Source of the DNA: Carnobacterium divergens DSM 20623
GTDB lineage: Bacteria > Bacillota > Bacilli > Lactobacillales > Carnobacteriaceae
Assembly: GCF_000744255.1 (NCBI RefSeq)
Contig: NZ_JQLO01000001.1
Span: forward strand, 868,001-932,000
Direction of reading: 5' to 3'
Length of the DNA stretch: 64,000 bases
The notes beneath the pieces were generated by a model, which saw only the letters and a program-made list of their open reading frames with translations, was not told the origin of the DNA and searched no databases. Positions 2,807 to 62,080 of this stretch are shown here, in pieces. The translations under genes were made by a program, and so were the position numbers. Positions within the stretch are counted from its first letter, which is position 1; each line of letters opens with the position of its first letter.

Positions 2807-2851
2807 CTATTCCATAATCGCTCTAGATGAATCCTTTTAGGAGGATTTTTT

Positions 2852-3427
2852 ATGAAAACCAGTAATACCAAAAGGTTAGTCGGGATCGCAATGCTAGGGG
2901 CAATTGCCTTTGTGCTGATGTTTTTTGCTTTTCCAATCTTACCAAGTGCCAGTTTTATGAAAGTCGATTTTAGTGACGTGCCAGTCTTAATGGGGATGTT
3001 TTTATACGGACCTATTGGAGGTGTACTAGTGGCGCTAATTAGAACCGTCCTTCACTATATTCAAACAGGTGGAGATATGGGGTATCCAATTGGCGATATT
3101 GCGAGTTTTATTGCGAGTTTAGCATATGCAATGCCAATTTATTTTATTGTCACTAAGCAACAGCGTTATGATATGAAAACGCTAGTAATGGCTAATATTG
3201 TTGGAACTGTCTCTTTAACTACAGTTTTATCAATTGCAAATTGGTTTGTTATTACACCATTGTATATTACAATCATGGGCTTTAATTTAGGGCCAGTGAA
3301 AGAGATTGTTTTATATGGCGTAGTGCCTTTTAACATTTTAAAAGGACTAGTGGTGGGAATTGTCTTTATTGGACTATTTGCAAAATTAAAACCCTTTATT
3401 TTAAGAAATCAATTACGAAATTATTAA
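2852..3427 (+). CDS. ribU: Riboflavin ECF transporter S component
   Basis: RibU is the substrate-binding membrane subunit of the energy-coupling-factor transporter that imports riboflavin, working with the shared EcfA/EcfA'/EcfT module encoded elsewhere. The 191-residue protein is very hydrophobic, with about six predicted membrane segments and the family features FPILPSASFMKVDFSDVP, MFLYGPIGGVLVALIR and NILKGLVVG. The ribosome binding site AGGAGG at 2840-2845 fits the ATG. The FMN riboswitch in its leader independently supports the substrate. The gene is monocistronic, ending at a terminator. Its place before fer and ypbB-recQ matches B. subtilis ypaA/ribU. Confidence 0.95.
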   Translation: MKTSNTKRLVGIAMLGAIAFVLMFFAFPILPSASFMKVDFSDVPVLMGMFLYGPIGGVLVALIRTVLHYIQTGGDMGYPIGDIASFIASLAYAMPIYFIVTKQQRYDMKTLVMANIVGTVSLTTVLSIANWFVITPLYITIMGFNLGPVKEIVLYGVVPFNILKGLVVGIVFIGLFAKLKPFILRNQLRNY

Positions 3428-55899: not shown

Positions 55900-57222
55900 T
55901 TGGTTGAAACAAGTTTTGTAAACGTTATCGGAGCCGGATTAGCAGGAAGTGAGGCGGCTTTTCAGATTGCTGAAAGAGGAATTGAGGTTCATCTTTATGA
56001 AATGCGTCCAGTAAAAAATACAGAAGCTCATCATACGTCAGATTTTGCTGAGTTAGTTTGTAGCAACTCATTGAGAGCGAACCAGCTAACGAATGCAGCG
56101 GGTTTATTAAAAGAAGAGATGCGACAATTTAATTCGCTTATCATTAGTGAAGCAGATCAAAATGCAATTCCTGCAGGCGGAGCATTAGCTGTTGATCGAG
56201 ATAAATTTTCGCAAGGTGTAACGGAAAGAATTAAAAAGCATCCATTGATAAAAATTTTTTCTGAGGAAATCAAAACATTACCGAAGGGACCGACTGTTGT
56301 TGCAACAGGCCCGTTAACATCTGTTGCTCTAGCAAAAGAGATTGCAGAATTTACCGAATCAGATGGACTCTATTTCTATGATGCGGCTGCACCAATTATT
56401 GATAAAAATAGCATTGATTTTGATAAAGTATATTTAAAGTCCAGATATGATAACGGTGAGGCTGCCTATTTAAATTGTCCAATGAATGAAGAAGAGTTTA
56501 ATCGCTTTTATGATGAATTAATTGGAGCTGAAGTAGCACCGTTAAAATCGTTTGAAAAGGAAAAATTCTTTGAAGGCTGTATGCCTGTTGAAGTGATGGC
56601 CAAACGTGGACGTAAGACATTGCTATTTGGCCCGTTAAAACCCGTTGGCTTAGAAGATCCTAAGACAGATAAGCGGCCATTTGCAGTTGTACAATTACGG
56701 CAAGATAATGCGGCAGGGTCTCTTTATAATTTAGTTGGTTTCCAGACGCATTTAAAATGGGGAGAGCAAAAACGGATTTTGCAATTGATTCCAGGTTTAG
56801 AACAAGCCGAAATTGTTCGATATGGAGTTATGCATCGAAATACGTTTATTAAATCTCCTGACTTATTAAAAGCAACCTATCAGTCAAAAAAACGTTCAGA
56901 TTTGTTTTTTGCTGGACAAATGACCGGCGTAGAAGGATATGTAGAAAGTGCCGCAAGTGGTTTAATTGCGGGAATGAATGCAGCTAAGCTAGTTTTAGGA
57001 GAAGAATTAGTAACTTTTCCTATAGAAACTACGCTTGGCAGTATGGCTTATTATATTACCCATGCCGATAGCAACTATTTTCAACCAATGAATGCAAATT
57101 TTGGTTTGTTTCCACCCTTACCAGAAAAAATTAGAGATAAAAAACTTCGAAATGAAGCGTATGCAAATCGGGCATTAGAAAGTATTTTAAATTTAAAGAA
57201 AATTCTCTCAATAGAGGTCTGA
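55900..57222 (+). CDS. trmFO: tRNA (uracil-54-C5) methyltransferase, folate/FAD-dependent TrmFO
   Basis: TrmFO makes m5U54 in tRNA with methylene-THF and FAD. The 440-residue protein has the FAD site [52 protein letters not shown] with the active Cys, [15 protein letters not shown], and [19 protein letters not shown] start with AAGAAGG 8 bases upstream. As in B. subtilis (gid) it precedes the codV operon; its likely terminator overlaps the next gene's ribosome binding site. Confidence 0.96.
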
Positions 57223-57230
57223 ATAGATTG

Positions 57231-57288
57231 AATTCTCTTTGTTGATATGATAAAGTATCTTTGTCGTATCAACAGGGGGGATTTTTTT
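57231..57288 (+). terminator. Terminator-like hairpin covering the xerC ribosome binding site
   Basis: Bases 57231-57255 (AATTCTCTTT then GTTGATATGATAAAG) pair continuously with 57259-57283 (CTTTGTCGTATCAAC then AGGGGGGATT), about 25 pairs with several G-U, around loop TAT. The right arm holds the Shine-Dalgarno AGGGGGG (57274-57280). It is followed by T residues up to 57288, which include the first two bases of the xerC start TTG at 57287. It looks like the trmFO terminator but may also gate xerC-hslVU-codY. Confidence 0.65.
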
Positions 57289-58186
57289 GGATGAGTCACA
57301 ATGGATTTCTATTTTTTTACAGTATTTAATGATTGAAAGACATTACTCTGAATTAACAAAAAAAGCCTATGAAGAAGATATTCTAGAGTTTAAAAAATTT
57401 CTTGAAGAAACTGGTGAAGCTTCTTTCAAAGCAGTTACGCTTTCTGACGTTCGAATTTATTTAGGTTTATTAAATGAAAAACAATTAAGTCGCAACTCAG
57501 TTTCAAGAAAAATATCAAGTATGCGAGCGTTCTATCAATTTTTATTGAAAGACCAACTAGTAGAAGACAATCCTTTTTCATATATTCATTTGAAAAAAAA
57601 ATCACTAAGATTGCCACGCTTTTTTTATGAAAAGGAAATGGAAGCCCTGTTTACAGCCGTAAAAGGAGATAGACTGTTAGATTTTCGGAATGAAGCTTTA
57701 TTAGAAGTATTGTATGGTACTGGTATTCGAGTTAGTGAGTGTAGCAATATCCAAATCAAAGACTTAGATTTTGAATTAGGGGTGCTGCTAGTTCATGGGA
57801 AAGGCAACAAAGAACGTTACGTTCCATTTGGGCATTATGCAGCAATTGCGATTAAAGAGTACCTTGAAAAATGCCGAACACCTTTAATGACAAAATACCA
57901 TAAAGAACATCCCTATTTATTTGTAAATCATTATGGCGATCAGATAACGCCAACTGGAATTGAATATGTATTAAACCAAGTAATAAAAAAAAGCAGTTTA
58001 ACCTCTAATATTCATCCTCACATGTTGCGCCATACATTTGCTACTCATTTATTGAATAATGGTGCAGATATGCGAACTGTTCAGGAATTATTAGGTCATG
58101 CAAGTCTTTCTTCGACACAAATTTATGCTCATGTAACGAAAGAGCATTTACAAAAAAATTACCGACAATTTCATCCAAGAGCGTAA
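57287..58186 (+). CDS. xerC: Tyrosine recombinase XerC/CodV
   Basis: This is a site-specific recombinase of 299 residues that resolves chromosome dimers at dif with XerD. N-terminal SAM-like domain ([19 protein letters not shown]), then catalytic residues Arg in [41 protein letters not shown] with Tyr. All six active residues are present. TTG 57287 matches the family N-terminus; the ATG 4 bases on is out of frame. It heads the operon with hslV, hslU and codY, and its ribosome binding site is in a hairpin. Confidence 0.94.
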
Positions 58187-58224: not shown

Positions 58225-58767
58225 ATGACAACAACTTTTCACGCAACAACGATTTTTGCAGTGAGTCATAACGGGGAATGTGCAATGGCTGGCGATGGTC
58301 AGGTAACGATGGGAGAATCTGTTATCATGAAAGGCACAGCACGTAAAGTTCGTCGTATTTATAACGGTGAAGTGCTAGTTGGATTTGCTGGAAGTGTAGC
58401 AGATGCTTTTACATTAGAAGAAAAATTTGAAGCTAAATTAAATGAATACAAAGGCAATTTAAAACGAGCTGCAGTAGAGCTAGCTCAAGAATGGCGTACA
58501 GATCGTGCAATGCAAAAACTTGAAGCATTATTAATTGTCATGAATAAAGATGAAATGCTAATGGTGAGTGGCGGTGGTGAAGTGATTGAACCGGATGATG
58601 GTATCTTAGCGATTGGCTCTGGTGGGAATTATGCACTTTCAGCAGGCCGAGCATTAAAAAAACACGGTCAACATTTAAGTGCAAGTGAAATTGCCAAAGA
58701 GAGCTTAACGGTAGCAGCAGATATCTGTGTCTTTACCAATCATAATATTATCGTGGAAAAACTTTAA
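58225..58767 (+). CDS. hslV: HslV protease subunit (ClpQ/CodW)
   Basis: HslV is the peptidase of the HslVU proteasome-like complex. The 180-residue protein matches the family ([44 protein letters not shown]). The N-terminus is [11 protein letters not shown]: the internal ATTI matches the usual catalytic Thr-Thr, but in Bacillus CodW the residue after the initiator Met (Ser) is reported to act; here this residue is Thr. AGGAGG at 58211-58216 fits the ATG. It lies 15 bases before hslU. Confidence 0.95.
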
Positions 58768-58782
58768 AAGGAAGTGTCTACA

Positions 58783-60201
58783 ATGAATACAACTATTAAT
58801 ATGACTCCTAGAGAAATCGTTCAAGAACTTGATAAATACATTATTGGACAAAATGAAGCTAAAAAATCGGTTGCGGTAGCTTTACGTAATCGTTACCGTC
58901 GCCTACAGTTAGAAGAAGAAATGCAACAAGAAATTACGCCCAAAAATATGTTAATGATTGGGCCTACTGGCGTAGGTAAAACGGAAATTGCACGTCGTTT
59001 AGCAAAAATCGTCAATGCGCCTTTTATCAAAGTAGAAGCAACAAAATTTACTGAAGTAGGCTATGTTGGACGTGATGTGGAATCGATGGTTCGTGATTTA
59101 GTTGAAGTTAGTATCCAAATTGTTCAAAAGCAACAATATTCAAATGTCTATTCACAAGCTGAAAAACGCGCAATTGATCGTGTAGCCAAATTACTTGTTC
59201 CAGGAATTAAAAAGGAAAAGAAAAAGGCTGCTAATTTAAATCCTTTTGAAAATATGTTTCAAAATATGGGTGTTGATATGGCTCAATTTAATCAAGAAGA
59301 GGTCGAGGAAGAAGTGACCGAAACGATTTCATCAAATCGTGAAACAATGAAGCAACAAATTCGGGATGGCTTGCTAGATCAAAGAGAATTAACAATTGAA
59401 GTGAATGAGAGTAAAAAACCGGTCAATTCTCCTATGGGAGCTGGCCTTGAACAAATGGGGATTGATTTGAATGATACCTTAGGAGCCTTAACTCCAAAAC
59501 GCAAAATCAAACGGACAGTGACTGTTCAAGAAGCAATTAAAATCTTTATCCAAGAAGAATCTGAAAAGCTCGTTAACCCAGAAGACATTCATTCACAAGC
59601 CATTAAACTTGCTCAAAATACAGGGATTATCTTTATTGATGAAATTGATAAAATAACTTCTAAAGCAAGTCAGTCTGGAGAAGTCTCTCGTGAAGGTGTG
59701 CAGCGCGATATTTTACCAATTGTCGAAGGATCACAAGTCAACACAAAATATGGCACAATCCAAACAGATCATATTCTATTTATTGCTTCAGGTGCGTTCC
59801 ACGTTTCTAAACCAAGTGACTTGATTCCAGAATTGCAAGGACGTTTTCCAATTCGTGTAGAACTGAATGATTTAGATGCAAGTGATTTTGTTAAGATTTT
59901 AACAGAACCTAATAACGCATTGATTAAACAATACATTGCAATGCTTGGAACGGAAAATATCAAAGTAACCTTTACCTTTGAAGCGATTGAGCGTTTAGCA
60001 GAGATTGCCTTTAAGGTGAATCACGAAACCGATAATATTGGCGCACGCCGTCTGCATACAATTTTAGAAAAATTATTAGAAGATTTATTATTTGAAGCTC
60101 CAGATATGCATATGGGAGAAATTACAATTACAGAAAACTATGTGAACGATAAAATTGACTATATTGTCCAAGATAAAGACTTAAGTCGTTATATCTTATA
60201 A
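58783..60201 (+). CDS. hslU: HslU ATPase subunit (ClpY/CodX)
   Basis: HslU is the AAA+ unfoldase that feeds HslV. The 472-residue protein has [20 protein letters not shown], Walker [15 protein letters not shown], the pore GYVGRDVE, the inserted I domain (about 120-235), Walker [11 protein letters not shown], sensor GRFPIRVEL and [13 protein letters not shown]. The C-terminus RYIL docks into HslV. ATG 58783 follows AAAAGGAAG by 9 bases; GTG 58774 is too close. Confidence 0.95.
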
Positions 60202-60219
60202 GAGCTGGAGGAAAAACGA

Positions 60220-61017
60220 GTGAACAATTTACTTCTTAAAATGCGTAAAATCAGCAGTATGCTGCAACAAAAAGGCGGTGTAGCGTCGGTTTCTGATCGT
60301 TTGCCATTTAACAATATGGCAGAGATATTAGGAGATACTCTAGATGCGAATACCTACTTGATTAGTGAGAACGGAGTATTACTTGGATACAATGAAAAAC
60401 ACGGGATTAACAATGAGCGAGTGAAACAAATGCTTGTTGATGAAAAATTCCCAGCAGATTATACAGCTAACATGTTAGGTATTACTGAAACAAAATCGAA
60501 TATAGGTGTAGAAAGTGACTATACAGCTTTTCCAATTGAAAATCGTGACCTATTTGCTGAAGGGCTAACAACGATTGTCCCCATTCGTGCTGCTGGCGAA
60601 CGATTAGGAACGATTATATTAGCACGTTTGCATTCGGCGTTTGATGATGGAGATTTAATTTTAGCAGAATACAGTGCAACTGTGGTGGGAATGGAAATTT
60701 TATACCACAAATCAAATCAAATCGAAGAAGAAACAAGAAGTTTGGCGATTGTTCAAATGGCGATTAAAACACTTTCTTATAGTGAACTAAAAGCCGTTAA
60801 AGCCATATTTAATGAACTAGATGGCTTAGAAGGACGTCTAACGGCATCTAGTATTGCTGATAAAATTGGCATCACTCGTTCAGTTATTGTTAACGCATTA
60901 AGAAAACTTGAATCAGGTGGGATTATTGAATCTCGTTCACTTGGAATGAAAGGGACCTATATTCGGGTAAATAATCCAAAATTTATAGAAGCCCTTGCTA
61001 AAGAATCTGTTTATTAA
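60220..61017 (+). CDS. codY: Global nutritional repressor CodY
   Basis: CodY represses amino-acid synthesis and transport, and other stationary-phase genes, when branched-chain amino acids (and GTP in some species) are abundant. The 265-residue protein has the N-terminal GAF sensor domain ([31 protein letters not shown]) and the C-terminal winged helix ([20 protein letters not shown], then [14 protein letters not shown]). GTG start at 60220 with GGAGG 8 bases before. Last gene of the codV operon; terminator follows. Confidence 0.97.
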
Positions 61018-62031: not shown

Positions 62032-62080
62032 AAAAAACCTCTTATGGATTGAATTGTTCAATCCATAAGAGGTTTTTGCT
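62032..62080. terminator. Bidirectional terminator between epimerase gene and plsY
   Basis: AAAACCTCTTATGGATTGAA and TTCAATCCATAAGAGGTTTT form a perfect 20-bp stem with a 3-base loop and U-runs on both strands. Confidence 0.96.

Follow-up and report, generated by a model that had tools for sequence, protein, structure and literature searches.

Known leaders that hide the ribosome-binding site in read-through RNA

In IS10 and IS50, RNA that reads in from outside the element folds back and hides the ribosome-binding site of the transposase, whereas RNA initiated at the element's own promoter leaves it accessible; it is the inverted end of the element that supplies the stem. We know of no description of this stem as a terminator that carries the start codon. 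In phage T4, the long upstream RNA of gene e (lysozyme) buries the Shine-Dalgarno (SD) sequence in a helix, and late promoters are located in the DNA of the 5′ strand of that helix; RNA that starts from them lacks this strand and is translated (PMC3014915). Burial of the SD in long upstream RNA has also been reviewed for I-TevI, soc, 49, and mobE of phage Aeh1 (PMC3014915). The translational half of the design described here is therefore already established from gene e of phage T4 and its relatives.

The leader of xerC (codV) in Carnobacterium divergens DSM 20623 was analysed within a stretch of 64,000 nt (contig NZ_JQLO01000001.1, positions 868,001 to 932,000), hereafter the window. Like gene e, this leader is predicted to hide its SD in read-through RNA and has a predicted promoter in the DNA of the 5′ arm. 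Unlike in gene e, the promoter looks vegetative, the operon it serves (xerC-hslVU-codY) has cellular housekeeping functions, and the helix is at the same time shaped like an intrinsic terminator whose U-run contains or precedes the start codon. With the IS10/IS50 fold-back it shares the prediction of being closed in read-through RNA and open in RNA from its own promoter. Its stable stem, the U-run that directly follows, and its place after trmFO or topA are those of an ordinary intrinsic terminator between operons; unlike such a terminator, it has the SD as its 3′ arm, a tail with the start codon, and a promoter nested inside. The element is likely to be a promoter folded into an intrinsic terminator, which would isolate the xerC-hslVU-codY operon from the upstream gene. 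No phage DNA similar to it was found, and, as far as tested, it does not appear to belong to the phage family through common ancestry. In the open-access literature, we found no description of a fusion of SD burial with an intrinsic terminator or of this element before xerC-hslVU-codY, and nothing usable on the start sites of xerC, hslV, or codY or on promoters within terminators.

Structure of the xerC leader

The hairpin upstream of xerC consists of 26 uninterrupted pairs that enclose a loop at positions 57256 to 57258 (Table 1) and folds at −31.1 kcal/mol (RNAfold, positions 57228 to 57300). No fold of this stability was obtained among 200 dinucleotide shuffles (z, −6.95), and longer windows give a z of −5.0. 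An earlier note, made from the sequence, had described about 25 pairs (57231 to 57255 with 57259 to 57283), all of which are contained in this stem, and had proposed RNA folding as a check, which yields this single stem with a z of about −7. It also placed the only SD in the right arm and saw the U-run behind the stem merge into the TTG start codon, and the sequence reads accordingly: the SD is followed by A57281 and T57282 to T57288, and the start codon occupies positions 57287 to 57289. A stable hairpin with an immediate U-run is the hallmark of an intrinsic (Rho-independent) terminator, and the leader has this form (26 pairs, then an A and seven U residues); a consensus scan likewise classes it as terminator-like. 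Apart from this stem, there is no terminator-like hairpin between trmFO and the xerC promoter. In all the xerC leaders compared in this work, the upstream neighbor of xerC, wherever it could be assigned, is trmFO or topA on the same strand.

Table 1. Positions in the window of the xerC leader element and of the genes around it
Feature	Position	Strand	Basis
Upstream gene trmFO	55900..57222	+	ORF; identity from the earlier note and the conserved location between topA and xerC
TTGAAT (predicted −35 hexamer), at the base of the left arm	57228..57233	+	Sequence; family invariance; motif counts
Left (5′) arm, comprising the promoter spacer and most of the −10	57230..57255	+	RNAfold; family alignment and pair counts; arm-swap test
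Predicted extended −10 TGATAAAGT (hexamer TAAAGT, 57251-57256)	57248..57256	+	Family-invariant TGATAA(A/G)GT
Right (3′) arm	57259..57284	+	RNAfold
Predicted transcription start G, 7 nt past the −10, in the right arm	57263	+	Spacing from the −10; invariant G
SD of xerC (AGGGGGG), within the right arm	57274..57280	+	Sequence; SD unpaired probabilities
U-run of the terminator, overlapping the start codon	57282..57288	+	Sequence; terminator scan; U-run in 36 of 37 nested leaders
xerC/codV, first gene of the operon, TTG start, 299 codons	57287..58186	+	ORF
Downstream operon genes hslV, hslU, and codY	58225..61017	+	ORFs 58225-58767, 58774-60201, and 60220-61017; names from the earlier note and recognition, without a profile search

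A strong SD-containing stem with a U-run is found in the window only at the xerC leader, and the element is present in a single copy in the genome. Rfam gave no match to this leader even at E ≤ 5 and none at the gathering score across the window, and the element thus does not belong to a riboswitch, T-box, or other curated leader RNA family of that collection. The other SD-stem match in the window (2840 to 2852) is a short and weak stem behind an FMN riboswitch; the region as a whole (2603 to 2852), in which the riboswitch is followed by this SD-burying stem, a U-run, and the ATG codon of an ECF-type membrane protein, has the makeup of an ordinary expression platform. A strong stem of 20 pairs at 62033 to 62077, with U-runs on both strands, lies between two convergent genes and looks like an ordinary bidirectional terminator.

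A predicted promoter within the left arm

The left arm of the hairpin contains a feature absent from the earlier note: TTGAAT and TAAAGT separated by 17 nt (57228 to 57256), with TG at the extended −10 position. A −35 hexamer at a distance of 16 to 18 nt and a TG one base upstream of the −10 are the marks of a vegetative (SigA-type) extended −10 promoter, and both are present here. The TTG of the −35 at the 17-nt spacing and the sequence TGATAA(A/G)GT are invariant in a family set of 18 genomes from six genera, in which the element precedes xerC. The −10 hexamer TAAAGT matches the consensus at only four of six positions, and a simple scan did not list the promoter. The G at the predicted start is also invariant in the 18 genomes, yet pairs only as G-U in every stem. 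Because an A would pair better at this position, the G is probably kept for a reason other than pairing, for example as the start site. The same promoter is found without the hairpin in Enterococcus leaders, where the extended −10 is TGCTAAAGT; promoter and hairpin can therefore be separated, and the latter seems to have been built around the former.

Because the predicted start (near 57263) lies beyond the left arm, RNA initiated there would not contain that arm and would need no opening factor; it folds at only −6.2 kcal/mol. The computed probability of the SD being unpaired is 0.002 in the read-through RNA of C. divergens versus 0.36 in the predicted-start RNA, and the respective medians are 0.005 and 0.52 in the 37 leaders of the same design described below. 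The SD in the short C. divergens RNA is thus predicted to be open, but only in part. By these predictions, the long RNA hides the SD and the short RNA does not, as in T4 gene e, and the promoter, judged by consensus only, falls in the DNA encoding the 5′ arm or separating the two arms.

According to the earlier note, the operon can be expressed only if it is opened by a factor, a promoter within trmFO, or an alternative fold; this view gives way to a best-supported promoter located inside the hairpin itself. The corresponding model is a regulated attenuator, in which promoters farther upstream would supply most of the xerC-codY mRNA and opening of the stem, by a factor or an alternative fold, would switch the operon on. 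A stem that closes the only SD, ends in a U-run, and is predicted to be closed in read-through RNA would fit such a device, but with a conserved promoter within the element there is no need for opening, no antiterminator or aptamer with signs of conservation was seen upstream of the element, the rest of the leader is short (about 60 to 70 nt in genus g1) and differs in sequence from genus to genus, and no Rfam family matches the leader, which together make an attenuator improbable.

Conservation in the family and across the order

In the family alignment of the stem, 85.9% of the cells are paired, compared to 48 to 56% for slid partners, and six pairs have changes on both sides. The wider set comprised xerC leaders from 101 genomes in six families of the order. 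For each leader, the duplex between the −35/−10 region and the downstream region through the start codon was evaluated with the native left arm and with left arms swapped between genera. The nested design, with differing arm sequences, is present in 37 of the 101 leaders, from 20 genera in four families (f1, f4, f6, and f9), counts that refer to related genomes and depend on cutoffs for “nested” and “separate terminator” that were chosen following an initial pass. The native duplex in these 37 leaders is far better than those obtained by arm swaps between genera. Even with swaps restricted to other nested leaders, whose left arms are likewise pyrimidine rich, the native arm was unmatched in 22 of the 37 and in the top tenth in 33. 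Arms that have changed and still match are exemplified by CTCCAACAT/ATGTTGGAG (L149), CCTCCGTAC/GTACGGAGG (L244), and GCCTCCTCTAA/TTAGAGGGGGC (L232). The alignment that the earlier note had suggested as a check on the stem thus reveals conservation with compensating arm changes.

Carriers of the element include Lacticigenium naphthae and two Trichococcus species, and in the nested leaders of families f4 and f9, the −10 sits in the loop. A U-rich stretch at the start codon accompanies 36 of the 37 nested leaders versus 8 of the 64 others. The motif TTG-17-nt spacer-TGnTAnnnT occurs in 27 of the 37 nested leaders (0.06 expected from dinucleotide shuffles) and in 38 of the 64 others (0.49 expected).

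The good conservation of the inner dyad within the family, as well as the occurrence of AAAGTTACTTT in Enterococcus leaders that lack the long stem, could also reflect a DNA operator, i.e., a dyad ATGATAAAGTNACTTTGTCAT across the −10 that binds a repressor, with the RNA hairpin being incidental. This is very unlikely: pairing of the outer stem persists as its sequence changes, G-U pairs, at which the DNA is not symmetric, are frequent (one of them is invariant), and leaders of f4 and f9 lack the dyad yet keep the SD stem. An operator regulon was also sought by scanning the genome for the dyad with up to 3 mismatches; it yielded 21 matches versus 13 with the reversed control, no clear excess.

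Exchange with a separate terminator

A separate hairpin with a U-run between topA or trmFO and the promoter is found in none of the 37 nested leaders versus 48 of the 64 others (Fisher P = 3.4 × 10−15; 1.4 × 10−8 by genus; 1.3 × 10−7 for gaps of at least 110 nt only; 3 × 10−5 with genus units permuted within families), in a comparison where the nested junctions are shorter and leave less room for a second terminator. Neither the nested stem nor a separate terminator is present in 16 leaders. Both states occur within single genera (f4g9 and f4g58), and in genus g3 of family f1, which has a topA terminator of its own, the stem is weaker and the U-run is interrupted. Of the available evidence, this exchange speaks most strongly for a terminator function of the nested stem, and it is from this pattern that we infer termination.

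The same mutual exclusion, together with a U-run that tracks the stem in all but one of the nested leaders, points to termination as the selected property. It would also be expected under a narrower form of the promoter-in-terminator explanation, in which the terminator of trmFO or topA simply uses the SD for its G-rich arm and closure of the SD is a by-product without a selected function. Such economy is possible but rather doubtful as the whole explanation, as it accounts for the placement of the stem on both the SD and the promoter, in unrelated arm sequences, only through short spacing.

Proposed mechanism

In the preferred reading, that of a promoter folded into a terminator, the promoter spacer and −10 would form the 5′ arm of the hairpin, the SD of the operon would form the 3′ arm, and the U-run would carry or precede the start codon. 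Polymerase arriving from trmFO (topA in many relatives) would transcribe both arms, and most such RNA would end at the U-run; in RNA that passes the terminator, the SD would be locked in a stem of about −31 kcal/mol, and little or no protein would be made from read-through. Polymerase that binds the nested promoter would start near 57263, within the 3′ arm, and its RNA would form no stem, escape termination, and expose the SD. A single stretch of 60 bases could thus serve three uses, as a stop for the upstream gene, a start for the next operon, and a ribosome-binding site. The simplest account is that the hairpin sorts RNAs by origin, those initiated at the promoter being open and those that read through being terminated and closed.

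The claim of the earlier note that read-through from trmFO is mostly terminated and translationally closed agrees with this account, indirectly, through the position of the SD in the 3′ arm of the terminator, the conservation of the stem, and its replacement of a separate terminator. Transcripts that lack the left arm, which that note would have taken as a refutation, would count only against the notion that every transcript is closed and not against the role of the stem toward read-through.

Somewhat more tentatively, although on balance still favored, this may be a recurrent junction of Bacilli, possibly including Bacillaceae, in which promoter, terminator, and SD share one hairpin, the origin of the RNA decides both termination and translation, and the design has repeatedly come and gone, trading places with an ordinary terminator; it may also exist at other genes. 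Such junctions illustrate how an operon for a global regulator and a protease (CodY and HslVU) could be shielded from the gene upstream without additional DNA, and the nested leaders represent natural designs in many genera. Annotation tends to treat terminators, promoters, and ribosome-binding sites separately, and could therefore miss this class. Should the start site prove to lie in the 3′ arm, one and the same sequence would have opposite readings depending on where the polymerase began.

Related designs and other leaders

Inspection of a short list suggests a related design, built from other sequence, at four loci of Bacillaceae type: L315, L316 (Neobacillus terrae), L317 (Jeotgalibacillus sp.), and L319 (Cytobacillus horneckiae). 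In each of them, a stem encloses the −10 region in a trmFO-codV gap of 63 to 66 nt with no other hairpin; the −35 TTGCAA is part of the stem, the SD is located at the stem's base or immediately beyond it, and there is no clear U-run. In L317, the stem reaches up to a perfect 15 to 19 pairs. Relatives without such a stem (L312, L318, L321 to L326, and L333) have long gaps with hairpins of their own.

The xerC leaders of Enterococcus and Vagococcus (L107 to L126 and L291 to L297) contain a conserved AAATTCTGACAATT just upstream of the −35, which we take to resemble the CodY box (AATTTTCWGAAAATT). This putative box suggests that CodY controls its own operon in these genera.

A pattern scan of 395 genomes for SD stems with T-runs returned mostly apparent ordinary terminators, at least one TPP riboswitch leader, and a few candidate nested cases before other genes. 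A similar layout of an SD within a stem, a U-run, and a start codon precedes other genes in L166 (G330:C18:183375-183435), L268, L273, and L281, one of which looks like radC; these are possible further cases of the architecture. In L286, a TPP riboswitch with an SD-burying stem and a U-run lies upstream of a membrane protein gene, probably for a thiamine transporter, and looks ordinary; the hairpins of L287 to L289 are similar to it.
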